This document shows positions 10,015 to 64,000 of a DNA stretch of 64,000 bases, piece after piece. This DNA comes from Boswellia sacra (Eukaryota; Streptophyta; Magnoliopsida; Sapindales; Burseraceae), in the NCBI GenBank assembly GCA_013180625.2, contig SNVD02009651.1, positions 62,001 through 126,000 of the forward strand, given 5' to 3'. Within the stretch, counting starts at the first letter, position 1, and every line of letters begins with the position of its first letter. The notes beneath the pieces were generated by a model, which was not told where the DNA came from, did not search any database, and worked only from the letters and a program-made list of their open reading frames with translations. A program made the translations under genes and the position numbers.

Positions 10015-10185
10015 GGCTAGATAGCACAGTTGTTGCTTAATGGTTGCTATCTTGTTTTGCTCTCAAATCAATCTTTCTCTGGTTTGTTTGAGAAATTTTC
10101 AGCTCCTTTGATGATCTTTCACTGGCTTCTTTGAGCTTTTAAGGTTACATAAAATGATGAGAAACGGTTCGCTACATATCAGCAG

Positions 10186-28973: not shown

Positions 28974-30485
28974 TGATGAACACTTAAATATATATGCTTA
29001 ATAAGAGCTTAATTTATCATGTTGCATTAATAGTGTCTTTAAATTCCTCAACTTAACCATATTTGTAGTCTTTGCATCTTTTGAATTAACTTCATCTTAA
29101 TTTTGGTTTTTGTTACAGGTTCGGTAAAATGAACATAACTTTCTATTTATAGATCAAAATGGTACAAATCTTGATTTGCTAGAAAGCTGATTGAATTATC
29201 TACAAGATCATATTTCACAAGAACCAGGAAATCTGGGCTCTTAGTGGACCAAAAATGGGCTTGAAGTGAACCCATCTACAGTTTCGGTCCAGCCTGACCA
29301 TACCTTCGTATTTTGACCATAACTCTTGATATACGTATACAAAGAGTATGAATCAAGATGTTGTAGAAAGCTGAGAGAAATATCTACAATTTTTATGAAG
29401 AAATGTGATCAAAATTCTAAATAATTCGATGCCAAAATCGGTGGTCAAAGTCGGTGCAGATGATGATCCAAATTGTCAACAAGATATTTTACAATTATCC
29501 CTTTATAATTTGACAAGTTTGCCCCTAAATGTATCCATAAATAAAAGTGTATTGCGACCTATTAGGGCATCTTGGCTTTGACTGAAATCTCTTATTATTG
29601 TGTTTTTCTCTTGTGTTTTATTCTCTTAATGTTATTAATAAATCATTTTCTTTTTGCAATTTATTTTCTTTCTTGCACAATGTCTTGCTAAATTCTCTTT
29701 TGCTAAAGTGAAAGGGTGAAACCCTTGATATGTGCTTTATAATCATAATCTTTTGTTATTTATTCTATATGATTTATATTTGTTTCTCTAATTAATCTTG
29801 ACACCACTCGTAAAATAGAAGTCTTGATCCATTGTAGACAATCCTTGGCATATCAAATGCTTGGATCTTTTCTAGATGTCATATGGTTCTTCCTTACCAA
29901 CACAAGTCTAGTTAGAAACCTTGATTTGTTGTAGACATATGATGATTGGCATATTGGATACTTTAAACCCATTTACAAGAAGTAGTATAAATATTGGTAA
30001 CGAAACAAATATAATTCATGTGACTAAAATGGGCTTAAATGACATATCTTCCGATTGGAACCTCCTTGATGTGTAGATTTCAATTAAGTTATAATTGAGT
30101 TATGTATCCTTATTTGATATATCAAGGGTAAATCCCCTAACCTTAGCCTTCATTGTTATTGTGTTAATTTATCTTACATTTGTACTTTAATTATTCTTAT
30201 GAAATTGTTCTTTTATTTGCTATAGTAGGTTTTACCTCCTATTTTCATGGATGGTTTTACCACTTTTTGTTTTTGCTTTACATTTGAATGGTCGGTAGTA
30301 CCGCCTACCATCTTTACTTTTATTTGTTAATATTATCTTTTTATTTATTTGCATTATTTATATCACATTTCTCATCATTTAGTTTGTACCACTAAATCCC
30401 TTCCTCATGAATTGACCCCGATCTCACCGAGTTTATTACTTCAACATTCCTATACTTGGAAGATAATCCTTTTTTGGATGTGTTA
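28974..30485 (+). repeat. 5' LTR of the Athila-type element
   Basis: 1512 bases, from TGATGAACAC to GGATGTGTTA, matching 38601-40140. Both copies end TA rather than CA, so the change predates this insertion. The promoter is expected within it but no specific box is claimed. Confidence 0.93.
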
Positions 30486-30491
30486 AGTTTT

Positions 30492-30509
30492 TGGCGTTGT
30501 TGCTGGGGA
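30492..30509 (+). other. primer binding site (tRNA-Asp type, decayed)
   Basis: TGGCGTTGTTGCTGGGGA, six bases after the LTR, is the Athila-type tRNA-Asp primer site with three C-to-T changes, as expected from deamination of methylated cytosines. Confidence 0.85.
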
Positions 30510-30577
30510 AGGTAAAATTTGGCATGCAAAATTGTAAGTGTTTTCTTTTCTTATTTTAGATCTTAACTTTTTCTTTA

Positions 30578-31730
30578 TTGTGTGTTCATCTTTTCTTTTC
30601 TTTTCTCTTTCAAATTTGCATGAAAATTTGGTCACGAACATCTAGTGGTGGACTTATTAGGAAAACATCATCTTCCCTAGAAAACATGGTTGACAATCAA
30701 GTGGAGGAGAGGTTCACGGATAAAGGGGATAATTGTTCCCAACAAAATGACCAAAATCAACCAAGAACCCTCAAAGATTACATGAATCCGGTAAGGATTA
30801 GTGCGCCATCTTGTGTAGTTTCTCCTCCCGATGCAATCCATTTCAATTTCAAACCGAATTTCATTCGACTTTTACCCACCTTTCATGACCTTGATGTAGA
30901 GAACTCATGTCCACACTTAAAAATCTTTGAAGAGGTGTGTAACTCCTACGGTGATCCAAATTGTAGCATAAACACCATTAGATTAAAGCTTTTTCCTTTT
31001 TCTTTAAAAGATAAAGCTACAACATGGCTGCAAAATTTGAGGTCAAGTTCCATCAGTTCGCGAGATGAGATGAAACAGCAATTATTGAAAAAGATTTTTC
31101 CTACCCATAGAACAAATTCTCTTAAAAGACAAATTACCACATTCACTCGAAAACAAGGAGAAACTCTTTACCAATGTTAGAAAATGTATAAAGAATTACT
31201 TAATACCTGTCATCGCCATGGTTTTGAAACTTGGAGAATAGTTGCATACTTCTATGAAGGGTTAACACCTCAAGATAGGCAACTAGTAGAGCTAATATGT
31301 AACAGACAATTTGGAGATGAAGACCCTGAGGAAGTAATTGACTACCTAGATTCATTAGTAGACAAAGCCCAAAATTGGGACTCTGCTGGCACCTATGAGA
31401 TACCAAGCAAAGCCCCACCCTCGACATCTAATAGAGGTATTTACAACCTTAGGGAAGACTATGGCCTTCAAGCCAAATAGGCATTCCTAGCTAGAAAAGT
31501 CAAGGCTTTAGAAATGAAAAAAAAGTGGTCAATTGAATTATATTCAAGAAATTGTCTATCACATTTGTAATGATAATAACCATCCTACTGATGAGTGCCC
31601 AACTTTGCCTGCCTTTAGGAAATGTCTACATGAACAAGCCAATGCCTTGAACACTTTCAAAAGGCTAAATCACAATCCATACTCACAAACCTATAATCCC
31701 GATTGGAGAAATCATCCGAATTTTAATTAA
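30578..31730 (+). pseudogene. Athila-type gag, broken
   Basis: Capsid-type Gag with typical blocks: LKDYMNPVRISAPSCVV, HFNFKPNFIRLLPTFHDL, IRLKLFPFSLKDKATTWLQN and FPTHRTNSLKRQI. A stop at 31178 splits one frame (30578-31180 continues in the same frame at 31184-31480). The nucleocapsid part (31533-31730) is in another frame and holds HICNDNNHPTDEC, a zinc knuckle that has lost its first cysteine. The Gag-to-protease spacer (about 31900-32250) is also interrupted. It cannot yield a full Gag. Confidence 0.9.
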
Positions 31731-32291
31731 AAAAATGACAATCATGCACAATCTTCACAAATACCTTTTCAAACACATCAAAATTTTCAAAATTCTCATG
31801 ATCATGCATATGCTCCTTCTCCTAGGAAGGACCTTGAAAAAACATCGTATTCATTCATTACAAAGTAAGAGACTTTTACTAGTCAAACTGCTCAAACATT
31901 AGCAAATTTGTCAGACACTCTTGTAAAATTTACATCTACATTTAGCATTCAAGAAAAAGAGAAATTTTCTTATCAAACATTACAAAACCCCAAAGACCAA
32001 TCTAACTCAAATGCGGGGAGTTCAAGTAACCATTATATGAACCAAGCTAAATCGCATGAACTTCGCAATGGTAAGGTTGTTGAAAAACACATTTCAAAAC
32101 CTTACGAGAAAGAAGATGAATCGATCTCTAAAGGTCAAGAACCAAATCCCCATCTGTGCCTCCATTTCCTCAAGCATTAGCTAAACAAAAGAAACCAACT
32201 CACAATTCTAAAATCTTTGAAATTTTCAAACAGGTAAAGGTTAACATTCCCTTGTTAAATGTGATCAAACATACCTTCTTATGCAAAATTT

Positions 32292-33149
32292 TTGAAAGAT
32301 TTGTACACTGTGAAAAGAAAATTGAATGTGAAAAAGAAAGTCTTTCTAACTGAGCAAGTAAGTGCTATTCTTCAAAACAATAATACAGTGAAATATAAGG
32401 ACCCAGGTTTTCCTACAATTTCATATGTTATTGGAGACTATAAAATTGAAAAAGCTTTACTTGATCTTTGTGCTAGTGTGAATTTGCTTCCATACTCGAT
32501 TTTTCAGAAACTAAATCTAGATGAGTTAAAACCAACTTCTGTGACTCTTTTGCTTGCTGATAGATCAATTAAAGTGACAAGAGGAGTAGAAGAAGATGTG
32601 TTAGTTCAAGTCGATAAATTCATTTACCCAATGGATTTTATCGTCTTGGATACACAACCAGTGGAAGTATGTTATTCAATTCCCGTGATTTTAGGGCATC
32701 CATTTCTAGCTACCTCTAATGCTTTGATTAATAGCAGGAATAAAGTCATGAAGCTATCATTTTGGAACATGACATTGGAACTTAACATTCTTAATATGTG
32801 CAAACAATTGCATGAAGAAGATAATGAAATCGAGGAGGTTAATATGATTGAAACTATTGTGGAAGACCACATCCAAAAAGCGAGTTTTTCTGACGCTTTG
32901 GAAACTTGTTTAGTCAATTTATTAGAATCAAGTATGCAACTAGAGCCTGATATTTCTAATAAATGTTCTTTATTGGATTGTGCACAAGTGATGAAAAACA
33001 AAGGCTCGAAGCCACAATTTGAAGAATTGGGACAAATGAATGAAAGTAAGGAAGAGGAAGCTCCCAAGTTAGAATTTAAGCCTTTACCTGAAGGACTAAA
33101 ATACGCATATCTTGAGGAGAATCAGACATATTCAGTTGTAATTTCTTAA
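32292..33149 (+). pseudogene. Athila-type aspartic protease region, catalytic motif damaged
   Basis: The 285-residue frame contains KALLDLCASVNLLPYSIFQK and later VILGHPFLATSNALI, the two signature blocks of the retroviral-type protease in Athila Pol. In the first block the glycine after the catalytic Asp-Leu is a cysteine, which should disturb the active-site turn. The frame itself is open, but it is cut off from gag and RT by stops. Confidence 0.88.
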
Positions 33150-33317
33150 TCCCTCACAAGCAAGCGACAAGGTAAATTGATAGAAGTGTTTACAAGGCAT
33201 AAAAATGAAATTGGGTAGACTTTAAAAGACATAAAATGCATTAACCCTTTGATTTGTACACATATAATACATTTAGAAGAAAACACCAAAACATCCCAAT
33301 AACCTTATAGGAGATTA

Positions 33318-34530
33318 AATCCCCACATGAAAGAGGTCATTAGTGCTGAAGTTCTTAAACGCCTAGATGTGGAAATTATCTACCCTATTTTTTATAATAA
33401 GTGGGTAAGCCCTACACAAGTAGTACCTAAGAAATCTGGCATTACAGTAATCAAAAATGAAAAGGGTGAATCATTACCAACTCGAGTCTCATCTACTTGG
33501 AGGATGTGCATTGATTGTAGAAAATTAAATGTTGTCACCAGAAAAGACCATTTTCTCTTACCATTCCTTGACCAAATTTTAGAAAGAGTAGTAGGGCACT
33601 CCTACTACTGCTTTTTCGATTGATACTGAGGCTATTATCAAATTTTTATTACACTTGAAGACCAAGAAAAGACCACATTCACGTGCCCCTTCGGCACTTT
33701 TGCATTTAGAAGAATGCCTTTTGGACTTTGCAATTCTGCAGCTACTTTTCAAAGATGCATGTTAAGCATTTTCAGTGATATGGTTGAGCATTGTTTAGAA
33801 GTTTTTATGGATAATTTAACTGTCTTTGGAAATTCTTTTGATAATTGCCTTGAAAACTTAGAAAAAGTCTTAAAAAGATGTTAAGAAAAAGGTCTTATTT
33901 TGAGTTGGAAAAAATATCATTATATGGTTACTTCGGGAATTGTCTTAGGTCATATGGTATCTTCCAAGGAAATTGAAGTGGACAAAGCAAAAGTGGAATT
34001 AATTTCTCATTCATTCTTAGGATATGCTGGATTTCATAGGAGGTTCATAAAAAATTTCAATGCTATATCTAAACCTCTTTGTAACCTCTTAATAAAAGAC
34101 ACTTCTTTTGAATGGACTCAAGAATGTCAAAATGCCTTTGATAAGTTAATTGGACTTTTAACAACTACTCCAATTATGCAATCTCCTAATTGGTCCTTGT
34201 CTTTTAAATTGATGTATGGTGCGAGTGACAATGCTGTTGATGCTGTCTTAGAACAAAGAAAAGAAGGTAATTCTTATGTGATATACTATACAAGGACTTT
34301 AAATGATGCACAAATGAATTACACAACAACTGAAAAATAACTACTTGCAATAGTATTTGCATTGGACAAATTTTGATATTACTTAATTGATTCTCCAACG
34401 ATTGTTTACACTGACCATGCTACTTTGAGATGTTTAATGTCTAAACAGGATGCAAATCCTAGATTGATACGATGGATCTTATTGCTCCAAGAATTCAACA
34501 TCACAATAAAGAATAAGAAATGAGCCAATG
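33318..34530 (+). pseudogene. reverse transcriptase-RNase H, broken
   Basis: RT blocks in order: WVSPTQVVPKKSG, WRMCIDCRKLN, FTCPFGTFAFRRMPFGLCNS, ATFQRCMLSIFSDMVE and VFMDNLTVFG. The last is the RT active-site loop, with the second Asp changed to Asn, so it should be inactive. Two stops follow FFD at about 33621, another lies near 33882. RNase H blocks follow: GASDNAVDAVLEQR, VIYYTRTLNDAQMNYTT, then (after a stop at 34340) IVYTDHATLRCLMSK. The first RNase H Asp position is also altered (YGAS). Confidence 0.92.
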
Positions 34531-34689
34531 AATTTTATTCTCCGTTGCTGTAGTACCTTGGTCTGCTAATATTGCAAATTTTTTTTGCAATAGGAGAAAT
34601 GCCACCTCATTGGAATGTCAAGACAAAAGGAAGTTTTTGATCGATGTGCAAAATTTTTATTGGGATGACCCATATCTATTCAAATATTT

Positions 34690-35886
34690 TCTGAACTGAA
34701 TAATTAGAAGATGCATACCCGACAATGAGGTAAGTAGTGTCATTAATTTTTGTCATTCTGAAGCATGTGGAGGACACTTTTCATATAAAAAAAAAAGGGG
34801 CTAAAATCTTGCAATGTGAAATTTTTTGGCCCACTTTATTAAAAGATGCACATGCATTTTGCAAAACTTGTGAAAATTGTCAAAATTTGGGATCTATTAC
34901 AAAACAAAACATGATGCCTTTGAATCCCATTCTTGTTGTTGAAATCTTTGGCTGTTCGGGTATTGATTTTATGTGACATTTCCACTATCATTTGGTTTTG
35001 TATACATTCTTGTTACAGTAGACTATGTTTCAAAATGGGTCGAGGCAATTCCATGTTGAAAAATGATCACAAAACAGTTATCAAATTCTTGAAAGAGAAT
35101 ATCTTGTGTAGATTTGGAATTCCTCGAGCCATTATTAGTGATGGGGGTGCATATTTTTGTAACAAACCATTTGAAACTCTAATGAAGAAATATGGAATAA
35201 CCCATAAAGTTTCTACACCTTATCACCCGCAAACAAGTGGACAAGTTGAATTAGCTAATAGGGAGATAAAATAGATCTTAGAAAAAACATTTAACCCAAA
35301 CCGTAAAGATTGGTCTTTAAGACTTAATGATACACTTTGGGCTTACCGAACTGCTTTCAAAACATTATTGGGAATGTCTCTTTATAGATTAGTTTATGGA
35401 AAACCTTGTCACTTGCCTGTGGAAGTTGAGCATAAAGCTTATTGGGTCATTAAAACATTTACCACAAATTTGAATAATGCTTGCAAGTTATGTAAACTCC
35501 AACTAAGTAAACTTGAAGAAATTAGGAATGAGGCTTATAAAAATTCTAAAATCTACAAAGAAAAAATGAAGGTTTTTCATGACAAATTCATTGTTAGAAA
35601 ATCTTTTGAATCTTCACAAAAAGTTCTTTTGTATGATTCAAGATTGCATTTATTTCCTGGTAAACTTCGATCTTATTGGACTGGGCCTTTCGTTTTTAAA
35701 AATGTTTTCTCTCATGGAGCAGTTGAAATTAGGAACCCAAAGAATGGTAATGTTTTTAAAGTTAATGGACAACGGTTAAAATCATTCTTTGAAAATTTTG
35801 ATCAAAATGAAGAGTCTATTGCTTTAATCGATCAAGGATTAATTTTTCTTGGTCAAATGGCGGATACGGTACTCTGTGACTTTTAA
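34690..35886 (+). pseudogene. integrase, broken
   Basis: The HHCC zinc domain is seen as HSEACGGHFS... and CKTCENCQNLG at about 34750-34890. The catalytic core follows in another frame: [20 protein letters not shown] and [20 protein letters not shown] (34933-35274), with the second Asp and the Glu region visible. Then come [14 protein letters not shown] and the C-terminal block [14 protein letters not shown] (35368-35886). One stop at about 35272 and a frameshift near 34970 inactivate it. Confidence 0.92.
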
Positions 35887-36836
35887 AGTCGGTTTTTTAG
35901 TTCCCTAAAAACTGTTGCTCATCTTGCATTCATTTTCTTTTCTTCTCTCTCATTTTCTTCACATGGGTACCATTCTCTTGAATCTGCACAGACGTTTTCC
36001 CTCTTTTCCTCAAAATGATTTGTTTAAAATTTACAAGTTCACGTATAAAGACTTAGGATGTTGATACGCAAAGGTATTCCTACTGATTTAAGATGGTTAA
36101 TTGAAGCTAAGGTTCGATTTTCTTTTGAATTTTTAGATGATCTTGTTTCTCACATGCTAGGTTTTTAAAAAAGCTCTTACGTCAAAAAGCGAAGAGCGAA
36201 AAGGTTACAAGTTTGTCACAAATGTGCAAGATAGACTTATAACCAGCATTGTGCTCCTTGGGATATTTGTCTAACAATCGAGAGGATAAGCTGCAATTCA
36301 TCAAGAATGGACTAAGTAGGGAGTCTTTGGATAATATCCAATTGACTATTGAGACGCATTCTTGTGGAATTATGCATCGTGAAATTTTGAAATTATGGAC
36401 ACAATTTTGAGAAGAGAAGAAACGTTAAAGTCTCTGGAATCTGACTTAAAACGATCATATTTTTCAGTTTATAAGAAAACTAGATGGGAAGCATATCCCC
36501 AACTCATAGAAGGTGTTTAAGCCATTTTTGGACGTAAAACCAGATGAAGATGCGAGCCATAGTCACAACTAACTGTACATATGCATGTGTGCTATCATTT
36601 TTAAATTTTTATGCCTTATAACTGTCATTTTTTAATTTATATCTTTCGGTTGACTTGTGCATTTATGCTGTCTTATTTCTATCATTGTTTTTGAATTTCT
36701 ATGCTTTATTGTTAAACTTTTTCAACAAACAGTCAAGCTACCTATAGATGTCATCATTAGAATACCTTTTTACACTTTATAAATATGACATCTCTTGTTC
36801 TTCACTTCACACATATAGTTACAGAGTTGCATAGAC
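35887..36836 (+). other. decayed segment between integrase and the LOG copy, with a Cys-rich fragment
   Basis: Frames at 36060-36412, read across stops and one shift, give IRKGIPTDLRWLIEAKVRFS, then KKRRAKRLQVCHKCAR, a Cys/His cluster, and REDKLQFIKNGLSRESLDN. This looks like the remains of a protein-coding unit with a CX2C pair, but I do not recognise the family. The rest is AT-rich and non-coding. Confidence 0.35.
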
Positions 36837-37459
36837 ATGGAAGGAACCTTAAAACGTCGAATCCAAAAGATATATATATTCTGTGGATCTCGACCTGGAA
36901 AAAGTGAAGAGTTTTTAGTAGTAGCAAATTATCTTGGTAGGCTATTAACTGAAAGAAAGATTTATGTGGTTTATGGAGGAGGTAACCTCGGGTTAATGGG
37001 TTGTGTGTCAACAGCTGCATTCGTAGGAGGCAGTCAAGTTTTAGGTGTTATTCCTAAAGCTTTGGTTGTAGAAAGTATCAATGGAAAAACGGTTGGAAAG
37101 GAGTTACAGGTCTCCTCTATGTATGAATGCATGGCATATATGCTTATAATTCGGATGCCTTTATTGAGTTACCAGGTGGCTTCGGTACTCTCGAAGAAAT
37201 TTTTCAAATTGCTTCTTGGGCCCAACTAAATCTCTATAAAAAACCCATAGGTTTGTTGAATGTTATAAATTGTTTTGATCCTTTGATATGTTTTGTTGAT
37301 GCAATTGTAGAAAAGGATTTTATCCCTCATTCGGTGCGACAGATCCTCATTTCTGCCACTAATACTAGTGAATTACTTGACAAATTACAAGCAGTCGAGT
37401 ATGAACCTGACCCAGCTATAACTGAAATTAATTGGTCAGAGGGACAAAACAAAAAGTGA
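36837..37459 (+). pseudogene. intronless LONELY GUY (LOG)-like gene captured by the retrotransposon, frameshifted
   Basis: LOG enzymes are cytosolic phosphoribohydrolases that turn cytokinin riboside 5'-monophosphates directly into active cytokinin bases. The first frame (36837-37145) gives KRRIQKIYIFCGSRPGK, VVYGGGNLGLMGCVSTAA and VLGVIPKALV. After a one-base loss near 37146 the next frame gives NSDAFIELPGGFGTLEEIFQ, IASWAQLNLYKKPIGLLNV and DFIPHSVRQILISA, ending at 37459. The PGGxGTxxE motif is intact. In the block after VSSM the conserved Arg and Lys of the family are Cys and Met (ECMAYM), so catalysis would probably fail. The copy covers essentially the whole ~200-residue protein with no introns, although plant LOG genes normally have several. 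It lies in the sense orientation of the element. Confidence 0.93.
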
Positions 37460-38585
37460 AAATTGGATCTGAATCTCTGTTTGTAATCTTTCTTGTCTTT
37501 TATTTTATTTGTAGCATTTTATTTTTGTGTTTTTTATGTCGTCTCTTTTGAATAACTGAAGCTTCAAGTAATGTCTCCTTTATTTTGTCTCTCTATATTT
37601 AAACATTGAGGACAATATTTCATTTGGTTGGGGGAAAGGATAGCAGACATAAGTGTGTTTTATATTTTCTTTTCTTACAAAAAAAAAAACGAGTTAGTAA
37701 TTAGATTCAGAGTGCGGTGTAAGGAGTTCAAATCCTCTTGAGACGTATTCTGGGTTAGGAATGACAGAGTAAAGAGGGCTATTTTGAGGTTATCTTATAC
37801 ACTTCACTTTGAATTATTCAAATCTATGAACTCTCACAACTTTGTCATTTAATAAATTGTTTGCTTATGTACTCATTAGGCAAGTATTTATGAACCTTTC
37901 TTCACACGCACACATACCTTGATGTATGATTATGGGTTACAAAATGAAATGTTGCAATATTTGAGTTCTTTTTTTGTTTAGGATAACAACAAAAGGAAGG
38001 GGAAAGTAAATAAAAAAAAGGAGAAAAAAAACGATTGTGGATAAGTACGGTCTCGTAGCCTCCTTAATTCGAGCAATTAAGCTTGAGGGGTGCCCAACAC
38101 CTAATACCCTAAGACCAACTAGTTTGGGAGTTATTGGCCAAAAGCTCATTATATAGATTAAGGAGAAAGCTTAAGGGGATTGAATATTACACTATACACA
38201 AGTTTCTAAGTGAAAATAAAGCATCGGCAATCCAAGTCGTTAAGCTCGTAAGGGCGTTTTAACACCTAATGCCCTAAGGCCAACTGGTCTGGGAGTCATT
38301 AGCCTAAGGCTCGTTACATGGTTAAAGATGTATTGTTTCAAAAAAAAATAAAAATAAAAATAATGATGAATGAATGCCCCCCGCTAAAGGATGTTAGCCT
38401 TAACAAATATTAGAATTGCTATGGCTTCTTTCTAAAAAGTCCCATAGTTATATGTTGACTGAGTACAAAAAGAAGGTTTGTTAGGGGCTAAAATCAAGGA
38501 AAGTGTAATAATGATCACCTTGGATGTAAAATTCTATAAATCACTTCTAAATAATAACTCTTTAATTGCTAGGGGCTAGTAATAA
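37460..38585 (+). other. non-coding 3' part of the Athila-type element
   Basis: No ORF of note. An ACATTGAGGACAATATT motif followed by GGTTGGGGGAAAGG (about 37600-37640) resembles the purine-rich stretch usual downstream of Athila coding regions. Two related segments are listed separately. Confidence 0.6.
38040..38335 (+). repeat. pair of diverged direct repeats
   Basis: The segments at about 38040-38160 and 38220-38335 share ACACCTAATRCCCTAAGRCC, then AACTRGTYTGGGAGTYATT and a CCTCATTA/CTCGTTA tail. They look like two copies of a ~120-base unit within the 3' non-coding region of the Athila-type element. Confidence 0.8.
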
Positions 38586-38587
38586 GC

Positions 38588-38600
38588 TGGTTGGGGGGTG
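38588..38600 (+). other. polypurine tract
   Basis: The G-rich run GGTTGGGGGGTG sits directly before the TGATG start of the 3' LTR, where plus-strand DNA synthesis is primed. Confidence 0.75.
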
Positions 38601-40140
38601 TGATGAACACTTAAATATGTATGCTTAATAAGAGCTTAATTCATCATATTGCATTAATACTGTCATTAAATTCCTCAACTTAAGCATATTTGTAGTCTTT
38701 GCAAATTTTGAATTAACTTTATCTTAATTTTGGTTTTTGTTACAGGTTTAGTAAAATGGGCATAACTTTCTATTTATAGATCAAAATAATGCAAATCTTG
38801 ATTTGTTAGAAAGCTGATTGAATTATCTACAAGATCATATTTCACATGAATCATGAAATTTGGGCTCTTAGTGGGCCGAAAATGGGCTTGAAGTGAACCC
38901 ATATGCAGTTTCAGCCCAGCCTGACCATGCCTTTGTATTTTGACCATAACGCTTGATATACATATCCAAATCGTATGAATCAAGATGTTCTAAAAAGCTG
39001 AGAGAAATATCTACAACTTTCATGAAGACATGTGATCAAAATTCTAAATAATTCAATGCTGAAATCAATGATTAAAATCAGTGCACATGATAACACAAAT
39101 TGTGAACAAGATATTTTACAATTATCCCTTTGTAATTTGACAAGTTTGCCCCTGAATGTATCTATAAATAGAAGTGTATTATGACCCATTAGGGCATCTT
39201 GGCTTTGACTAGGATCTCTTATTATTATGTTTTCTCTCTTGTGTTTTGTTCTCTTAATGTTATTAATAAATCATTTTCTTTTTGCAATTTATTTTCTTCT
39301 TGCATAATGTCTTGCTAAATTCTCTTTTGCTAAGGTGAAAGGGTAAAACCCTTGATATGAGAATAAGGATTTTCTAACCCTTGACATGTGCTTTATAAAC
39401 ATAATCTTTTGTTATTTATTTTATATGATTTATATTTATTTCTCTAATCAATATTGACACCACTCGTAAAATGGAGGTCTTGATCCATTGTAGACAATTT
39501 TGGCACATCAAATGCTTGGATCATTTCTAGATGTCGTATGGTTCTTCCTTACCGATACAAGTCTAGTTAGGAACCTTGATTTGTTGTAGACATATGATAA
39601 TTGACACATTAGATACTTGAACCCATTTACAAGAAGCGGTATAAATATTGGTAACGAAACAAATATAATTCATATAACTAAAATGGACTTAAATGACATA
39701 TCTTCCGATTAGAAGCTCCTTGATGTGTAGATTTCAATTGAGTTATAATTAGGTTATGTATCCTTATTTGATATATCAAGGGCGGATCCCCTAACCTTAG
39801 CCTTTATTGTCATTATGTTAATTTATCTTACTTTTGTACTTTAATTATTCTTATAAAATTGTTCTTTCATTTGCTATGGTAGGTTTTACCTCCTATTTTC
39901 ATGGATGGTTTTACCGCCTTTTATTTTTGCTTTACATTTGAATGGTCAATAGTACCACCTACAATCTTTACTTTTATTTGTTAATATTATCTTGTTATTT
40001 ATTTGCATTATTTATATCATATTTCTCATCCTTTAGTTTGTACCGCTAAATCCCCTTCCTCGTGGATCGACCCCAGTCTCACCGAGTTTATTACTTCGAC
40101 ACTCCTATACTTGGGAGATAATCCTTTTTTGGATGTGTTA
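38601..40140 (+). repeat. 3' LTR of the Athila-type element
   Basis: 1540 bases, TGATGAACAC to GGATGTGTTA, aligned with the 5' LTR throughout. It has an extra ~28 bases at about 39350-39380, where a CCCTTGAYATG segment is repeated. Confidence 0.93.
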
Positions 40141-42169: not shown

Positions 42170-42809
42170 GTCTAAACCAATAGTGCCTCTTTCGAACCAC
42201 ATTAGAAAGAAAATGATGAGAATATTCCAAAAGAAAAAGATATTGGCTACAAAATGGAATTGTCATATGCCTCCCAACGTGAAAGCTGATGTTACAATTT
42301 TGATGAATAAAAGTAGACAGTTAAAGTTGATTCATTAGGGTCACTTGGAGTTTGAGGTCTTGGATGGAACTAGGACATTTGAGATTAGGCCTTCTAACAA
42401 GTGATGTAACTATGGTGCATGGTCAATTGCTAGAATACCATGCAAACATGCCATGGGGGCTATTTGCTACTCTAGGATAAGGGTTGATGATTACATTGAT
42501 CCATATTTGACAGCTCATGAATATTACATGAAGACATATACAAGGCTGTTTCACCTCATACCAGATCAGACTAGTTGGCCTGAAAGTAATGGAGCTCCAA
42601 TTCTACCACCTATAAAGACAAGAAGGGTTGGAAGGCTTAAGAAACTAAGAAGAAGAGAGGCACATGAATCTACTTCAAGGAATAAGAGATCATTCATGCT
42701 TCATTACAGCTTTTGCAACTCTTCAACCCACAATAGAAAGACATGTAGGCTTGTTCCATCCAATGCAAGAAGACTAAGGGCTAAGGTAACTACCAATTTA
42801 TTCTCTTAA
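42170..42809 (+). pseudogene. mudrA-type transposase fragment (SWIM domain and C-terminus)
   Basis: The open part 42453-42809 reads HAMGAICYSRIRVDDYIDPY, then YYMKTYTRLFHLIPDQTSWP, APILPPIKTRR and SFCNSSTHNRKTC. This is the end of a MULE transposase: SWIM-finger tail, PP-rich linker and zinc knuckle (first cysteine missing). Upstream bases (42400-42450) encode the Cys-containing part of the SWIM domain, with stops. It is homologous to but distinct from the copy at 52090-52440. It lies inside the CACTA-like element, so it was probably carried or captured by it. No catalytic part is present. Confidence 0.82.
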
Positions 42810-43486: not shown

Positions 43487-46400
43487 CTCGGGACAATAAC
43501 TTTGTCAAACAATTTATGCAAGTAACAAGAGTTTTCTCATCCTCAGTGACAACCAAAGGGACAATAACCTGCAGAATGCAGAATTAGTAATTAATAGCAA
43601 CATTCATATTAGTACACTAAAACCATAAGACAAACAAATCCAAAACATTTAATTTCCACTGCTATTACTAGAAGACGACAAAGGCTAAAAGCATCCAAAA
43701 ATGAGATACACGAGAATATGAGAGAGAAAGAGAGAGAAAGAGAGATAGAATGGTCAGAACTATATACACTTAAACATCTGAATGGATCATATTGTGACAA
43801 AACCACAGTCAAGTAGTGTTCAGCTTCATTTGAAACCTGAAGATGGATTTATAACATTAAGAACAAAACATATGGCAGGAGAATAAAGTAAAAATCTAGC
43901 TGAGTAGAAGTAAAATTACTTTAGGAACAACATCCTTTGTAATGTGAAGCAGCTTCTCAATCACAATCTCGATAGAATCTTCCATGGCATCTTCCTGTAA
44001 ATATGAAAAATATAAGGTAAGTTATAATTTCATTAGAGATGAAGAAAAGACATAAACTGATATGCACATACCTGATTTTTTAGCATTTCATTAATCAATG
44101 AAAGAGCAACTCCCAAATTGAGGAATCAGAATCATCCAACACCTCAAGTACAGTCGTCAAAATCTGATTGAAGTACTGCCAGTATTTGAAAAGATGACAT
44201 CAATGTATAGTTCAATGTCAATTGTAGTGTAGTAGAGAATTATTTTACCTAATGGACACAAAAATGTTCACTACACAATTAAAAAATTTCAAACACAGAA
44301 GTAACAAACATCACACAGGCTAGGTACATGAAATAGTAGGATTTCAGGTCAGAGTGACTTACATATGAACAAATTTTAACTAAAAAATGGAGATAAAAGG
44401 AATTATGGAGAAAAAAACAGCGGACAATTCTTTCTGAAAGACTAAGCTTTGAAGTAAGGAATTATAGAGAAAAATGCAGTGGACAATCCTTTCTGAAAGA
44501 CTAAGCTTTGAAGTATAAAAACTTGGAAATCCGTCAATTGTATTTTCTAGCAAAGAGATAGAAAAGCAGAACAAATCATTTGAGATTCAACAATGTCTTA
44601 AGCATGTCTCTGTACGATCTCGAGTACACCTGATAATGATATTACCAACTGCTACTTACTCATGCATGGTTGAGTCAACCAATGAAATGAATCTAATCAA
44701 AACAGTCAAATTAATGGCAGATCATTCTTGTGAAGAAATTTTAAAAAGCTAACTCATATTAGTTTTCACACAGAGAATGAGAAGGGGAACGAGCAAATTC
44801 TAAAAACTAGGATCCATATAATAGTCATACAGATAGAGAGATAAGGAAGCATAGGTGTGGGTTAAGTGCTTATTGCAACAATCTAGATTGTCAAAAATAA
44901 TGCGCATGCTTGAGTTCCAAACAAGGTAGCAGAATGCGAGATTTAGTGAAAATGCCAAGGATGACAAAGTGAAAATTGGAACCCAACATTTTCATTAGCC
45001 TGAAGGAAAAATAAAAAGATAAAAAACAATTCCATATAAATTCATTCACATAAATCATGTACATCTGCATGTGCACACACATGAAAACAAACATAGAGAA
45101 CGTAATACAGAAACAGATCATGCCTTAGTCCAAATTGATTGATCACTAGCCACAAAAGCTTCAATTAGTTGCTGAAGTGCATCATGCTTACTTGCAGAAG
45201 GGTTTCCATCATGACCATTGCAAATCTAAAAAAAATAACAAGGAAACCCTTCATAAAGATGAAGTTCTTTTAAATCAATATTATCAAGTATTCTAAAAGA
45301 AATAAATAATTTCTATGATTTTCTGTTCTTTTCCCTTTTTTTTTCCTTCCTTTCTTTTGCACAAATTTGAATAACTAACTCATAACTACTAAAAGAAGGC
45401 TATGATGTCACAAAGCTCACCAAGTGAAGAATTTGGGGAATGCTAGGACTAGCATCTGTGAGAGATTTGGTCTTTATAGCTGATGGTTTATGATAATTAA
45501 GATCCAAATGAGCTGACATTTCATTATTATGCCCAACACCTCCAGAGACTTGTAAGGGGTTGTCAGAGCTCACTAGACCAGTAATGTCCAGACGCGGTGA
45601 AGACAAACCCTCCAAGTATTTGTTCAAACTAGTCAGATCCTTAGCTTTGGAAGTAACATCAGCATTAGAACCAGTCTCAAAGTTTTGACATGCACTCTCC
45701 TTAGTTTCATTAGAAGTTGTATGGCCCATACTGCCTGTGATCAGGTTGATTCTTGGACAGAGCTCCACTTCCTTCCACCAGCACTGTCAACAGAACCAGA
45801 AGAATACCTCCATAGTAATGACTCTTTTTGGAGGCGACAACATAGCCTTTTTCTGAAGATGTTCCGATAACATCCGATGGGTCATAAGAGGACTTGGCAC
45901 GCTGCCTCTCTTTCTTGCTCTGCAAATAGTTCATTAGATCCACCTTAATACGAGGAGTAAATTGTTTAAGTGATCATCTCAAGGAATTTTGTTCTTCAAC
46001 TGATAAACTAAGAATAAAATTAAGCACAGCCATTGAATCATAGTGAGAGTAGACAGATATAATGCATGTAATAGCTGCTTCCTTAAGCTTAGTATTTTTA
46101 TCATGGACCAATGGTGTCAACTTAGCAAGCCACAACTTCAGGATGCCAAGATTACCAGAACCTTCAGAATGCATTGCATGCTTGTTAAAGGAACTAATAG
46201 CAAACTCAATAACAGCCAATTTGGCCTTTGGTCACCACTGTTCATCAAGCGAACAGAGCATTGCAGGCAAGAGGGAATCGACACTATAACTTTTGCTCAC
46301 AATGTCCAATGTTGTTGAGCAGGGTTGCCTAACTAAATCCTTTGGGTCTGTCAGCCTAGAAAAAACATGGGGCAAGATTGTTTCCATATAACTCTCAAAG

Positions 46401-48984
46401 GGCTTCCGACAATTTGGAATAATATCTGCAAGTGTTGAAAGAGCTGCCTGCGCAACTTTATGATGGGGGTCATCCAAGTGCTGGAAGAACAACTTCATCA
46501 CCTTCTCAAAACTTTGAGTTATCTCCTGAATACCTTTTGGGCCTTGCTGCAGCAATGACCGGAGATAATTAAAAGCAGTAACCCTAGCAGACCAATCAGA
46601 ACTTGGACTGAGTCCTTCACTTAAAGCATCGTTGAGAGAGGCACGACCATCTGTGTAATTTGAAATCTCTCCAAGTGATAGCTGGCTATCATCAAAACTC
46701 CTTCTCCTGCTAATAGCATCCGTCCAGATACATGCTTCCTCAAAAGTGGCCTCTAGAAATTTGGAATGTAACTATTTTGTGAATCTCTAAAGTTTCCATC
46801 TTTATATGGTGTGTCCAGATATGGTCCGTCGATCTGCGAGTTCGTGAAACGCCTAGCCTCCCTATTGTCATTAGTCTATTCAACAGAACCTCTTTCTTGT
46901 AGCTTCTCAGAAGGCCTTCTAGCTGAATATGATGAAAAGGATGGCAAAGACTCGGTTGGCACATTACTGCAATACGATAATCTACTAGAATCTTTGGAAG
47001 CTTGAATTTGAGTAATGATATTAGACAATATCAGACCACCATTGAGGCTACTACCTTTATTTACACCACAAGCAGTTGATTCCACTGAGGTGTTTGTATG
47101 ATCATTAGAAGCTGGAACAGCAGCAGGGAATGGTGGATCACGAGATGATGGAGGGTCAACTCCTGCACTAGGGAGCAATAAGAAATATAAAAATTAGCTG
47201 CTCACAGATGATTCAAACTTTAACTCATTAAACAATCTGACAAATAGCCATCAATTCATCCTGAATGATTTAAAGCTGGTCCCATAGACTGTGAAAGACA
47301 TTAAAGTAAGCGAAATAATTTGATACCTAGATCCAAGCTCGATGATCGAAGAGTTGAAGGGTTCTGTTTGTCAGATATCTCCAAACCCCTAAGCATGCTT
47401 TCAATTGCAGTAACTTTCTGTTTGCTTGCGTGCAGTACACTTTCTAGACTCCGCTCACTGCCTTTACTAAGGGACTTTGTTTATGAGAGCAATCCAGAAG
47501 AAAGAGATGTTCCTGAGGATAAACTTGAACTTTTGTCCATCGCAACAATAGCAGAAGTTCCATATCCAGGTAGATTGGAAGAAGTTGATGTATAAGGGGT
47601 AAAGGACATATGTCCATCTCTGTCGCGGAGAGAAGGAGAAGCATGTCATCTATGCATGCCCCCATCCTCTTCAATTATTATCTGTCAAAACCACATTCTC
47701 TTTTAAAATATGGTCTACTCTGTGGAAGTACATAAAAACATTCTTCGAATAGAAAACAAGCTATATACCCTTTGAATGGCAGGATCAAAGGATGAAAACA
47801 ACCGACGGGAGCGCTCTGGCCAAGTCTTTGCAAACATTCTGTAGCACATCCTTGCAGTAGATCTCACCTGTAACAATTGGAATAAAACTTTTTAACTAAA
47901 ACAGAAGAATAGTGAGGCTTCAATTTATATACAGGTAATGTAAACAAAAGTAAAGCCCTTACATCCATCTATTTCCTAGTACACTCACACCTCAGCAGCC
48001 AGTAAAAGATTATATGACAGGAAGTATTTATCAATTAGGTTTAAACAATAGCTATAACATTTATGATATAAGATGAAAATATCATTCATCAATGAACCAT
48101 TGACCACATAACAAGAAAATTTTAACCTCTACCAAATACAATCAATGTTCACCCGTAACCAAGTGAACACACACATTTATCCATACTTCCTCATCCTCAA
48201 ATCTCATCTCATCTTTTTTTTTTGTTGCAATAGATTATGAATTTTTTTTCAAAGGCAACATCACTCATGGACACAAGAAGTACACAAGAGAAGCTCCCCA
48301 GCTGAGACTGGGAACAACTACACCCTCCCATTAAGAATATCAATCAATCTAAAAGGAAAAAAGAATGAATCAGGACTAAGACATATAGAAAAGCCACATA
48401 AAATGCACAAGAATCCAAACTTCAAAGAAAGCAAAACAAAGCTCAACAAATAATTTGCCATCCCTTGCTTTCCAAGTAGAAAACATCTGATGCACAGAAT
48501 ATGTCAAAGATTAACAGAAGAAATTTCAATAAGTACCTCACTCATTGCATCTGCTACACAACACCTAATCAGATTTTCGTATAGATCAGCAGATCGCTGT
48601 ATTTCTGGGGCATCAAGCCAATGTTCTAATATCAACAGTGCATATTCACAACACCTACAATGTGAAAAAGAAAAATTACAGTGATTTAGAGACCAGCACA
48701 GAAAATTAAACAAGGCAACAATAATTTTCAACTAATTCATCAAATATATTCACTTTAACCCTGAAAACACTATCCAAAAACAACAAGTGGATACTAAAAG
48801 GAGATCGAATCAAACTTGACCTACAAAAATAGATCTAAAATAAACACAAACCAAAATCAACCCATATAAAACCATGCTAAAGTAATCACAAAATGAGCAA
48901 CCCCACTAAATATTTCCACGAATTTAACTCTACCCACATGTAATAAACCAAAACTAAACACAAAACAAAATGCAAGTGATTACC
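43487..48984 (-). pseudogene. CLASP: multi-exon fragment of a CLASP (CLIP-associated protein) gene, broken
   Basis: CLASP is a TOG/HEAT-repeat protein that stabilises microtubules at plus ends and cell edges. Exons read on the minus strand are: an uncertain first exon ending 48984; 48654-48537 (YALLILEHWLDAPEIQRSAD); 47867-47769 (ARMCYRMFAKTWPERSRRLF); 47681-47327; the long 47162-45421 (HLDDPHHKVAQAALSTLADI, ILKLWLAKLTPLVHDKNTKL); 45226-45124 (GC donor); about 44176-44075; 43994-43920 (EDSIEIVIEKLLHITKD); about 43838-43773 (LSQYDPFRCLS); and about 43568-43487. Intron positions and phases are kept, so the capture was of genomic DNA. Stops lie at 47646, 47481, 46876, 46753, 46232 and 45974, with frameshifts near 46715, 45800 and 44110. 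Most stops look like CGA to TGA or CAG/CAA to TAG/TAA. It covers roughly the middle to C-terminal parts; both ends of the gene are missing. Confidence 0.93.
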
Positions 48985-59394: not shown

Positions 59395-61717
59395 ATGGAT
59401 CTGCTTTGCAACGCATACGGCACTACCTCCGACGATGAAACCGAACCCGAAATCAAACCCGAACTACAACCCGATTGTCAAAATCACATCTTTCCTCCAT
59501 CAAAGCGCCCCAGACCCGATTACCTGTATCCCCTTTCGAAGCCCCAGCATGCGCCGCACCCCAACCAACGATGTTCAAGTCTTCAAGGCGGAGCTCCGGT
59601 TGCTGGCAGATACATATCAAAGAGAGAGCGCGTTATGGCTTCCACTGTTTCCACCGCTCCTGAGCCTATCCCGAGCCTGGACCCGAGTGCCCCTGCTGTC
59701 AGTGCACAAGGTATTAGCTTTCTTTCGTCTAGTTATTGCTTAATGGTTAGTGTAGCATTAAAAGTGCTTTTAATTTCCTAGTTTTGTGCATTTAACTTAA
59801 CAATTGTGAAAGAAATGCTTTTGACTCACTTGGGCATTTTTATTTTTTTATTTTTATTTTTTATATTCTTCTGTTGTTCGTATTTAATTGTAAGATAGGG
59901 ATGAATAGATGAACAGATGTCTATATATCTGTATCCATGTAGGAGTGACATGAAGGCATTGGAGAATGGAAGTTGTACAGAAGTGTCTAGCTGTATGAGA
60001 GGGTTTATTTAAGATTTTTGGACGAGGGTTTCTGTATTTGTGTAGTGTGAAGAGTTCAATTAGTGTTTGAACAACTACATTTTCAAGTTTGATGTAAAAG
60101 ATTTTTCAGAAGTACACGAGAAATTGGTTTATAACTTGTTGCAATTTTTTTTTAGATGAATTTTTTGTGCATTATTTTTCTAGGTTATGAATTTCATCAC
60201 TAAATTGCTACAATTTGTGGTTTACCGTGGTTGTAGATGGATATTAAATTTATAACCCTATTGATAGTGTTTCACCTAGTTGTCAAAGAGTAATACCTAT
60301 CATTTTTTGGTGTAAGTCCAGCTGACAAAATTAAGTCGAAATTTTTTAATCTTGATAAAGGGAGTAGATATTAATCAACTATACTACGGAAATAGAGGGA
60401 AAGCAGTGGGAGTTAGATTATTTCTACTTAGTCTGGAATTAATCTGCGTTGCTGCCAAAATTGATTTTAGAGGTCTATGAGATTCATATTGAATAAATAT
60501 GTTGTAAGCAAATGCATAGACAAAATAAGTGGATCCAGTTTTGGTGCAATAATAATATTCTGAGGCTGCATGGCACAAATGTGTGTGATCAGTTGGGATT
60601 ATATGTCGATTACCGCTTGTAAAATTCAACTTTGGTGGGATATGTGATGGATAATTGTTTATGGAAACAATTTTTGCACATCTATGATGCTTCAATTGTG
60701 TTTTATGTTGAATCTTGTTCTTCTGGTAGAGATTTGTTTCTTCACTAGTGCATTTCATCTTTGTTGCAGTCCTCGGAAGTATTTCAGATTCAGATTTACC
60801 ACGTGATATTTTTTCATCATTGAGACATCGGCAGAAGGGCCATGCACAACAAAGCAGAGTTTCTGGAAAGCTGTCTTCAGCTCTTTCTAGCCACCGAAAG
60901 GCTGTAAATGCTATACAGTGGTCACCAAATCATGGTATGCTTTAATTATTGGTAAATAGTTGAAATGATGTTCTCCTTTCCACGCCTCCACCTCTTTTAT
61001 TTTGTTTCATTTTTTCCCCTTAATTTTCTTGTAACTTTGTATCTGAATCTGGCCATGGATGTTAAGATGCTTATGCAATGTCCCTTCAGTTAATTTCCTA
61101 TTGGATTGATTGAGTTTCAGCCTTTCAGGGCATTGGTTCCTAGTATTTATGTTGAAGTGTTAGTTGTTAAAGTATTTGCTTATTTATTATATTGCTGGCC
61201 TTATTGATCTGTTTATTAGAGTTAGTCTGCAGCTCATCTTCTTGCATCTGCCAGCATGGATCAAACAATCTGCGTATGGAATGTCTGGAGTAGACATCAG
61301 AAGTTAGCACGTGTATTTAACTTCCACAATGCAGCGGTGAATGATGTCAAATGGTCACAGCAAGGACTTTCAGTGCTTTCTTGCGGCTATGACTGCTTGT
61401 CGAGGTTAGTTGATGTTGAAAAAGGGATAGAGACACAGAATTTTAAGGAGGAACAGGTTGTTAGAGTTGTAAAGTTCCATCCGGACAACTCCAACATCTT
61501 CCTTTCTGCGGGATCAAAGGGCTCCCTAAGATTGTGGGACGTTAGAACTGGCAAGATTGTACATGAATACATTCGAAGTCTGGGTCCAATTCTTGATGTT
61601 GAATTTACCATCAATGGAAGGCAGTTTATCTCTTCCAGTGACGTATCTGGAGTCAACATGAGTGAGAATTCTGTTATCATTTGGGATATCTCGCGAGAGG
61701 TTCCATTGTCTAATCAA
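59395..61717 (+). CDS. WDR25-like WD40-repeat protein, 5' part (exons 1-3)
   Basis: WD40 proteins form a beta-propeller that acts as a protein-binding scaffold; the WDR25 type is conserved but poorly characterised. Exons are 59395-59710, 60770-60934 and 61233-61717, with GT-AG introns and agreeing phases (1, 1, 0), giving 322 residues so far. The start is the ATG at 59395 (MDLLCNAYGTTSDDETEPEI), the usual N-terminus of plant members; the frame stays open upstream, but that part looks non-coding. WD repeats begin at HRKAVNAIQWSPNHAHLLAS ASMDQTICVWN and continue with NDVKWSQQGLSVLSCGYDC, VVKFHPDNSNIFLSAGSKGS and SSSDVSGVNMSENSVIIWDI. After LSNQ the gene must continue, but no further exon was recognised in the last 2.3 kb. 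No damage is seen in the present part. Confidence 0.93.
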
Positions 61718-64000
61718 GTAAGAGTTTCCTCCAGCATATTCTTCTTTAGTCAGAATTGTTAACTATGTCCTTGGCTCCCCCCTCTTTCCATTTAGAAGTC
61801 ATATTACAGCTGTATTTCCATTTTTATATTCCTAAGTCACCCATATGAACCTTCTGAACCTTTTTAAAGAATTCTATTTATTGTTAAAAAAGCTATTATA
61901 TATTGATGAAATTTTTATTGTTTAAAGAGTGATAAACAGCAAACCAATTTGCTAAGCATTTGTAAGCAAAGAATTGGGGATGCTGATCTTTTTTGACTAG
62001 CACACTTCCTGAGTCGAGTAGACTTCGCCTGAATTTACCAAGGGGTATCCTTCGGCAGTAGCAAGATCATTTTCCCCACTCCTCTTTTTATTCATTTATT
62101 ATATTTAAATTTATTTATTTATTTATTGGCTAAGAAACAAACTCTTGCTGATTTGTTGTTGATCTACATCTTTCTTTCACTTCTTGTAGATAGACAAAGT
62201 AAATTAGTGGTTGCTTAACACATAATGGTTTTCCTTTCATACTTTTTATGCTAAATTCTTGAATGTAGACTGCCTGGTTCTACTTTAGCCATCATGTATC
62301 TTGTGGATTTATCTCGTGAGTGATGATTGGAAGGATGATTGCTTATCCACAGATGGGGAAAGTCCTCCACTAAAGATTCTCCGCTCCATTCACTTTTCTG
62401 TGGATTGTTTGCTCTCTGCTCAGCTTGTTATATTAATTCTGAAAATAGGTGGCTACTGAATCAAACTGTGATTCAAATATTATGTTCTGCTTAAATTGAA
62501 GACACAAGCTCAAAGATTCCCTTTCCCATTTTGCCTCACAAAATTTGATGACTTATTTGCAGGTCAAACTATAATCCTAATCATTCTAATTGCTTAAACA
62601 GATGCAGGACTTAATATGTCACTTGCAGTCTAATGGATTAATTGTATTCCATGTCAAATAATGATTTTTTTGGTTAGGCTAGATATGATAACTCTTGCCT
62701 TTTCAATTGTTAGGATTTAAGTTCTGATTCACATACAGAGAGTCTGCTAGCAAATAATTAAAATAATAATAATAAGCTGAGTGAGCTAAAATGATAATGT
62801 CGATATAAACAGGGGTTGACAAGTTAAAAAAAAAATTGTAGATAGGAATAGTGGATAATTAGTAGTAACTGTTGGGAACAAGACGACAATGATGGTAAGT
62901 CTAAAACATGTCAAGAGCAGCTGTTGACTAAACTGGTGACTAAACTGGTGAGAGTACTCGATATAGTTTATGTCAAAATGTTGCTAGGAAATGTGATCAC
63001 TGAAAACCTCCAATGTTAGATGTTGCTCTTTTGTTGCTGCACGTGCGCTTCTCAAAAGCCTTGAAGGATGGAGGCCTTATTAGAATTAAGACATGATTTG
63101 TCTACTTCAAAACTTGAAATGGCTTGAGACAGATTTATGCTGTTAGAAACATAAATAATACAATTTTATAATTTACTCTTCTTGTTTATATATATGTTGT
63201 GTATATATAAAGGCATTCTAGGTGAAATGAGTGACCTTTGTTGTTATATATTTCTGCTTCCTTAGGACAATTTAATTTTTATTTAATATATTGCCAACTT
63301 TGTGTGCAAATTTACTTGTATCCTTGCTTGCACGCACACTTAGTTATGCCTTTTCTTTAACTTTTTGCAAGTATTGTTTAGTCATGAAGACTGGATGTGG
63401 CAGCGAGATATACTGGTTTCAAGGATAGCAATTTTACACTAAGGAACTTCTTTTTAATTATTATTATTTTATTTTATTTGTGTCTAAATTGATATAATGA
63501 TTGTCTTAAATGTGAGGTGCTGAAATTGCTTCTGGAATTCTTATTGCTTTCTAAATTTGCATATTTGGTAAAGAATTTAGGAAATAAATCGATTTTAGAA
63601 TGAATAAATTCATCATAGTTTGTTTGGGCATCATTTATCTTTTCTCACCTTTTTGGTAGTCCAATTGCAAAGCCTTATCGTTCAGATTTGAGAATATAAT
63701 CAATCTTATTTGTAAATAACCTTTTGCACTGCTTTCTGTACTCAACTCTAACCATCAAAACCTCATCAAAATTTTAATTGAGGTTGAACACTTTATAAAA
63801 TAAACTTACAATATACATAAGGTTTAAATATATGTTTAATCTATTGTCTACAGATCCAAAACACTGCTGGGAAGCACCTTGTGATAACCTCAAAATTATT
63901 GATCTTATGACCCTGATAGATGCACCAATGAGTTTTATGAGTGAGGTAGCAAAATTTGACTGTCCAAGTTGGCATTCAAGTAATGGAATTTTTTTATAGC
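61718..64000 (+). other. long intron of the WDR25-like gene (3' end not in window)
   Basis: It starts at a GTAAGAG donor after exon 3. I searched the region by eye for the next WD40 exon (the family continues with a conserved propeller blade) and found none. A short stretch at about 63855-63960 is less AT-rich, but no translation fits WDR25. No clear transposon ends were found. Confidence 0.5.

Follow-up and report, generated by a model that had tools for sequence, protein, structure and literature searches.

The window analysed here, a 64,000-nucleotide stretch of the Boswellia sacra genome (contig SNVD02009651.1), contains a decayed Athila-type long terminal repeat (LTR) retrotransposon at positions 28974-40140, which carries a gene of the LONELY GUY (LOG) family between its integrase region and its 3′ LTR. 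This segment is best explained as a dead copy of an accessory gene that forms a standing part of an Athila-type lineage. Furthermore, we assign a probability of roughly 0.6 to the interpretation that the gene is an ancient accessory gene of this lineage, with a product that is probably nuclear and recruits host corepressors. At the level of sequence, the analysis established a common place of the gene within the element, missing introns, purifying selection, a C-terminal tail, a changed pocket and a companion gene.

The LOG gene of the window and its place in the element

The LOG gene of the window is read in two frames separated by one frameshift, the first of which (36837-37229) matches the Pfam family PF18306 (E 4e-6) and the second (37127-37456) PF03641 (E 8e-22). 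The top solved structures for these frames were the Arabidopsis LOG proteins At5g11950 and At2g37210. A chance similarity to LOG was also considered and is ruled out by the matches to Pfam families and to solved structures. An earlier note on this stretch had described an intronless LOG-like gene in sense orientation, 3′ of integrase and 5′ of the 3′ LTR, together with the frameshift, the LTR pairing and a perfect 5-bp target site duplication (TSD), and all of these features were corroborated (Table 1). The coding sequence had also been regarded as whole-length, but the TGA taken as its end is a premature stop, past which relatives continue in frame, and the window frame itself reads KLDLNLCL beyond it before reaching the stop of the family (Table 1). 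In addition, the catalytic Arg is lost in the window copy, in which Cys occupies this position.

In order to place this copy within its family, the genome holding the window (638.6 Mb in 7,431 contigs) was searched with the LOG DNA, and 40 of 2,746 first-look candidates were scored; first-look candidate numbers, here and below, are loose and do not represent copy numbers. All 40 scored matches are near full length, and the 39 besides the window share 89-91% identity. Within 5.1-kb pieces around these 39 copies, the order of pol-LOG spacer, LOG and downstream spacer is common to all, integrase similarity was found upstream of LOG in 27, and a same-strand match to the 3′ LTR was found downstream in 35. 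The LxLxLxL tail described below is readable in one of three frames in 34 of the 40 copies of this old subfamily. The position of the pocket Lys is occupied by Met in all 40, and the position of the catalytic Arg by Arg in 28, Cys in 11 (including the window) and His in 1. Thus, of the two residues that had been reported missing from the window, the Lys is lost family-wide, whereas the loss of Arg is not a family trait. Among the 40 copies, no third-position excess was detected (singletons 108/104/100 and variants present in at least 4 copies 44/29/31 by codon position), and no purifying selection was seen within this subfamily, although it shows between the subfamilies and among the young copies described below. 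The sequences of the old copies suggest a single burst followed by neutral decay.

A second, young subfamily was identified as well. A genome search with a host-type LOG fragment, with 150 of 10,453 first-look candidates scored, gave matches at 58-61% for all 150 sites, and 149 of these contain no stop in the matched stretch. Twenty young loci with approximately 70% DNA identity to the window LOG were cut out; the pol-LOG spacer of the window is matched by 18 of them, and an open LOG frame of 216 amino acids is present in 9. When one young LOG was used for a DNA search (40 scored of 2,947 first-look candidates), all 40 scored copies proved to be full length with 98-100% identity, 21 of them measuring exactly 651 bp and 19 deviating by 1-3 bases, which reflects either decay or assembly errors. 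Together with the 39 old copies that have LOG at the same place, the young subfamily bears out the family of LOG-bearing elements proposed in the earlier note.

In three young copies (L067/L068, L052/L069 and L056/L070; 1.6-1.9 kb upstream read for each), most of pol is gone, and these copies are therefore non-autonomous. Two of them have the protease and the start of reverse transcriptase (RT) joined to the region after integrase, the start of RT being recognised by eye and from a 36% match to the pol of the window, while Pfam gave no match, and the third has gag joined to a piece of integrase. The loss of pol thus comprises at least two different deletions, with LOG retained in all three copies and open in two.

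Capture via RNA and purifying selection

A host-type LOG motif pattern, MH[QE]RKAEM, occurs at 15 sites of the genome compared to 0 in a reversed control. One of these sites, read over 801 bp, contains at least 4 introns (after ...GGRHVLG, ...TLMPRE, ...FIALPG and ...IHDKP), in agreement with the earlier statement that plant LOG genes are split by introns, and open element copies run uninterrupted across all four places. Since the host LOG is intron-split and the element LOG is without introns, an RNA-mediated capture, as had been proposed, is supported.

The comparison of the open old copy L012 with the nine open young copies yielded a nonsynonymous distance (dN) of 0.245 and a synonymous distance (dS) of 0.966, corresponding to a dN/dS of 0.25, a value that neutral decay in the old copy biases upward. 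The codon bootstrap, performed for three of the nine pairs, ranged from 0.17 to 0.37, and the differences per pair amounted to 57/39/91 by codon position. A ratio of 0.25 between the subfamilies indicates that selection maintained the LOG gene during the active period of the lineage, which matches the expectation in the earlier note that some copies would be open and that Ka/Ks would lie below 1.

C-terminal tail, pocket and ancestry of the element LOG

For the comparison with host LOGs, a family set of at least 162 different proteins was compiled from the matches listed in two protein searches with element LOGs; named relatives originate from Reevesia, Diplodiscus, Pterospermum (a cluster of 327 member sequences), Populus, Melia, Parasponia, Xanthoceras and Rehmannia. 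The host-type set consisted of the best 120 matches of a search with two Arabidopsis LOGs. After 3 proteins longer than 300 amino acids had been dropped from each set and 4 sequences of our own had been added, the alignment comprised 163 family and 117 host-type proteins, and the roles of residues were taken from the description of the Corynebacterium glutamicum LOG (PMC4979012). The catalytic Arg and Glu are present in 154 and 157 of the 163 family sequences, respectively, and the pocket Trp in 161; each of these is found in all 117 host-type proteins. In contrast, the Lys and the Glu of the adenine/prenyl pocket, both invariant in the host-type set, are each retained in 12 of 163 and replaced in 151, and the pocket His is present in 88 of 163 family and 117 of 117 host-type sequences.

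The second difference concerns the C-terminus. Within their last 15 residues, 129 of the 163 family sequences and none of the 120 host-type proteins contain an LxLxL pattern. The four Leu columns of the tail are occupied by Leu in 135/150, 136/140, 132/138 and 135/137 sequences and are separated by variable residues, and Lys or Arg predominates at the three positions preceding the pattern. The tail and both pocket replacements occur together in 127 of 163 sequences; among the 34 lacking LxLxL, several have a reduced length or a substitution at one Leu, and 10 retain the host pocket. This pattern conforms to the definition of the ERF-associated amphiphilic repression (EAR) motif, LxLxL or DLNxxP (PMC6283911, PMC9956375), and the 129 tails therefore qualify by sequence as putative repressor motifs.

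A FastTree phylogeny of the same alignment, the host sample of which derives from the best 120 matches of a LOG3/LOG8 profile, united the element family in one clade (support 1.0) adjoining the LOG8 group (0.90). A tree had been expected to reveal the donor; within this host sample, LOG8 is the closest group and thereby a candidate donor group, although the donor may belong to another one. At the base of the clade, the Xanthoceras sequences as well as P0121, P0123 and P0127 possess the host pocket but lack an EAR tail, with a poor support of 0.11 for the deepest split, and the last three end in KKRRLA or KRRRLD. The next branch, P0126, combines the host pocket with an EAR tail, and the remaining sequences carry both changes or are shortened, except for P0128 and the truncated P0069, the latter with a Glu in the column of the pocket Glu. 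This arrangement suggests that a basic tail was gained first, followed by the EAR tail and then by the pocket change; alternatively, the basal sequences lost the EAR tail.

Nine Xanthoceras LOG-like proteins (P0001, P0002, P0017, P0129, P0130, P0137, P0139, P0143 and P0149) combine a host-type pocket with a tail that, in the complete sequences, is basic and lacks the EAR part. Some of them belong to clusters of 35-39 members, and P0001, P0002 and P0017 resemble tandem or fused gene models. Judging from their sequences, these proteins may have preserved the ancestral state or may have been amplified separately.

Family LOGs share the Rossmann LOG fold and the PGGxGTxEE motif. An AlphaFold2 monomer model based on a hand-picked alignment of 51 sequences was predicted with a mean predicted local distance difference test (pLDDT) score of 88.7 and has the LOG fold as its core; residues 204-210 and 213-216 lie below 50. 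The model matches plant LOGs at 0.7-1.4 Å, the best structural match being At2g37210 (57% identity over 178 columns, 0.7 Å). With the NCBIfam enzyme equivalog, 119 bits were obtained against a cut-off of 300, which is a weak test, as the host-like P0137 also falls under the cut-off (127.5 bits). A scan of IMG/VR with the LOG alignment returned no relatives.

A companion gene related to viral nucleic-acid-binding proteins

Young copies contain a second open frame of 184 amino acids between pol and LOG, which is complete in 3 of 20 loci, and two open frames of 182 amino acids were found at the corresponding gene in the old subfamily. All five open copies tested exceed the curated cut-offs of PF05515 (Viral_NABP; 32-42 bits, cut-off 23) and PF01623 (Carla_C4; 24-30 bits). 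In viruses, cysteine-rich proteins of this type bind nucleic acids and serve as suppressors of silencing and as regulators in the nucleus. All 40 old copies show similarity to the companion gene, the remnant in the window being broken. The dN/dS of the companion gene between old and young copies amounts to 0.195-0.23 at a dS near 1, which indicates purifying selection between the subfamilies. Neither a match in the comparison with solved structures nor relatives in an IMG/VR scan were obtained with the companion protein.

Proposed role and competing explanations

According to the interpretation that we favour, a LOG mRNA, with LOG8 as the nearest sampled host group, would have been captured long ago and probably once. 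The lineage would have retained the Rossmann nucleotide-binding fold together with PGGxGTxEE and both catalytic residues (Arg and Glu), altered two residues of the adenine/prenyl pocket lining (Lys and Glu), and gained a basic stretch followed by an LxLxLxL (EAR-type) C-terminus. The resulting protein may bind or hydrolyse nucleotides, hydrolysis of some nucleotide being plausible because the catalytic pair is kept, and may enter the nucleus. Its EAR tails could be offered to TOPLESS-type corepressors, by which host gene expression or silencing would be shifted in favour of the element, and it might act beside the second accessory protein, which is related to cysteine-rich nucleic-acid-binding proteins of plant viruses. 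A precedent for the targeting of TOPLESS is provided by a TOPLESS-binding pathogen effector (PMC7446885). More tentatively, the two genes could form a host-interaction cassette, in which an RNA virus-type nucleic-acid-binding protein is paired with a nuclear, EAR-tailed LOG with a changed pocket, both under purifying selection and the LOG kept in pol-deleted copies, and which might amount to a virus-like counter-defence by a retrotransposon.

Several points weigh against a corepressor-recruiting accessory gene. The functional interpretation as a whole is drawn from sequence alone, and LxLxL is a short motif. A complete LOG frame of 216 amino acids is present in only 1 of the 40 old-subfamily copies, which, given their lack of a third-position excess, are now decaying neutrally. 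The pN/pS of 0.14 among young copies is biased low, as these loci were chosen via protein similarity. P0128 lies deep within the family and has the pocket Lys, either kept or regained, and the pocket change was therefore not one clean step. Furthermore, relatives in other species were judged by sequence and copy number.

One competing explanation holds that the element LOG still activates cytokinin, and that more active cytokinin and dividing cells aid transposition and inheritance. This would agree with the retention of the catalytic residues, with the close fit of the predicted fold to plant LOGs and with the full pocket of the basal relatives. However, the pocket Lys and Glu are replaced in most of the family, and the exchange of AMP-binding or catalytic residues for alanine in the C. 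glutamicum LOG, one Ser excepted, led to an almost complete loss of activity (PMC4979012). That description lists the Lys as AMP-binding, and the passage concerned is silent on the testing of the second pocket Glu (PMC4979012). The low equivalog score points in the same direction, weakly, since P0137 falls short too. The changed pocket makes a cytokinin-activating enzyme, as which the gene had been regarded in the earlier note, less likely and the designation doubtful, even though the catalytic residues are mostly kept; we consider this explanation improbable. A comparably low likelihood is attributed to a structural tail, for instance a strand locking a LOG oligomer, with the protein working inside the virus-like particle or affecting nucleotide pools while reverse transcription takes place. 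Alternating Leu would suit a strand as well, and the LOG fold binds nucleotide monophosphates (PMC4979012), but the two tail segments of the monomer model fall below 50 pLDDT, the adjoining basic stretch appears nuclear-signal-like, and the pattern fits the EAR definition (PMC6283911, PMC9956375).

The gene might instead be a mere passenger, hitch-hiking and decaying after its capture. While the neutral decay in the subfamily of the window and the described capture of gene pieces by plant elements (PMC7264820) accord with this possibility, it is hard to reconcile with a dN/dS of 0.25 across a synonymous distance near 1, with a conserved tail and a changed pocket across relatives from Malvaceae, Populus, Melia and Rehmannia, and with the open LOG in two of three pol-deleted young copies, and we regard it as quite improbable. 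An independent retrocopy inserted in one Athila copy, the outcome that the earlier note had named as refuting its proposal, is itself refuted by the same place of LOG in all 39 other copies and by the companion similarity in all 40; nothing was found in its favour, and we give it practically no weight. We retain the ancient accessory gene with a corepressor-recruiting product as the preferred explanation.

Relation to known systems and significance

Additional open reading frames (ORFs) of Athila elements were reportedly placed in the 3′ region by Steinbauerova et al. 2011, the abstract of which is said to mention two Athila-like elements similar to LOGL4. For two Citrus species and, with the filter off, also for Populus trichocarpa, a YgdH/LOG domain has been reported in the consensuses of LTR retrotransposons, a result called ‘in line with’ Steinbauerova et al. 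2011 (PMC9289625). LOG-domain Ty3/gypsy elements thus being in print, the capture of LOG itself is not new, and the assumption in the earlier note that it had not been described does not hold. Like the element of the window, these are plant Ty3/gypsy elements that harbour a LOG-family domain, but the relevant part of that account makes no mention of a tail, a changed pocket, a test for selection or a companion gene (PMC9289625). No other report on these elements, the EAR tail or the pocket change was recognised by title and start of abstract among the entries listed from open-licence PubMed Central. Hence, the C-terminal basic and LxLxLxL tail and the replacement of the pocket Lys and Glu with the catalytic pair kept go beyond the published reports that our searches met.

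Compared with the plant LOGs At2g37210 and At5g11950, the element LOG has the fold, PGGxGTxEE and the catalytic Arg and Glu in common, and differs in its missing introns, the changed pocket Lys and Glu and the added basic and LxLxLxL tail. The sense or env-like 3′ ORFs of LTR retrotransposons, including Athila, share the position between pol and the 3′ LTR and the orientation (PMC7264820); the present element has an enzyme relative of captured origin and a protein resembling viral NABPs in place of an envelope-like protein. As in orchid Ty3/gypsy elements with an ORF for an AlkB-type RNA demethylase, an enzyme ORF was acquired and kept, although the orchid elements carry another enzyme, belong to the Tat lineage and have a demonstrated in vitro activity (PMC9289625). 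The companion gene, which passes both cut-offs for carlavirus-type cysteine-rich nucleic-acid-binding proteins (PF05515, PF01623), differs from these viral proteins in being retrotransposon-borne, and it is known, like the element LOG, from sequence alone.

For most antisense additional ORFs of plant retrotransposons, the origin is unknown (PMC7264820). The element LOG represents an additional ORF whose ancestor is known, for which an order of changes is suggested and whose constraint has been measured, which makes its role directly testable. Our results point to the possibility that corepressors of the host are enlisted by plant retrotransposons and that such elements possess a type of gene familiar from plant RNA viruses, and LOG and its companion may constitute a small set of accessory genes for dealing with the host. 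Furthermore, relatives carry LOG names in databases (‘LOGL10’ in Populus) or form large clusters (327 members, the named one from Pterospermum); if these relatives are element-borne as here, counts of cytokinin genes are inflated.

Structure of the element and neighbouring sequences

The features of the element are given in Table 1. Paired LTRs, a 5-bp TSD, gag and pol, and integrase as the last pol domain are all present, as in Ty3/gypsy elements. The Athila label follows the earlier note and is presumed from RT motifs and the type of primer-binding site (PBS); the candidate PBS presumably approximates the complement of the 3′ end of tRNA-Asp. The LTR pair differs by 127 mismatches in 1,527 aligned columns, plus one larger indel, as obtained from two slightly overlapping BLAST pieces. 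Gag and pol are split into many frames, the RT pieces being named by eye, and RNase H and integrase placed by Pfam.

Table 1. Features of the Athila-type element in the window, and positions of the companion gene in individual genomic copies (coordinates of the respective locus).
Feature	Position	Strand	Basis or remark
TSD left, 5 bp, CTAAA	28969-28973	.	sequence
5′ LTR, 1,512 bp	28974-30485	+	BLAST LTR pairing
Candidate PBS	30492-30509	+	sequence; tRNA assignment putative
gag, broken	30560-31480	+	Pfam; Retrotrans_gag PF03732 in first piece
Protease region	32265-33146	+	weak Asp_protease_2 match, under Pfam cut-off
RT/RNase H region, broken	33303-34337	+	PF17919 E 2.5e-18; PF17917 in last piece
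Integrase region, broken	34734-35883	+	rve PF00665 E 8e-10 in piece 34924-35274
Companion accessory gene, decayed remnant	35975-36506	+	Viral_NABP/Carla_C4-like in open relatives
LOG-family accessory gene	36837-37486	+	one frameshift; premature TGA 37457-37459; family stop TAA 37484-37486
Polypurine tract-like stretch, directly 5′ of 3′ LTR	38589-38600	+	sequence
3′ LTR, 1,540 bp	38601-40140	+	BLAST LTR pairing
TSD right, 5 bp, CTAAA	40141-40145	.	sequence
Companion gene, L051	2678-3229
Companion gene, L058	2680-3231
Companion gene, L065	2667-3218
Companion gene, L017	1672-2217
Companion gene, L033	2960-3505

Exon-like frames that we take to belong to host genes flank the element: a bHLH-like gene at 8857-10062 (-), a CLASP-type HEAT-like gene at 45400-46771 (-) and a WD40-like gene at 61226-61762 (+). 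An open frame at 42405-42809 gave no Pfam match at E 0.01; it presumably resembles the C-terminal part of a Mutator-like element (MULE) transposase.
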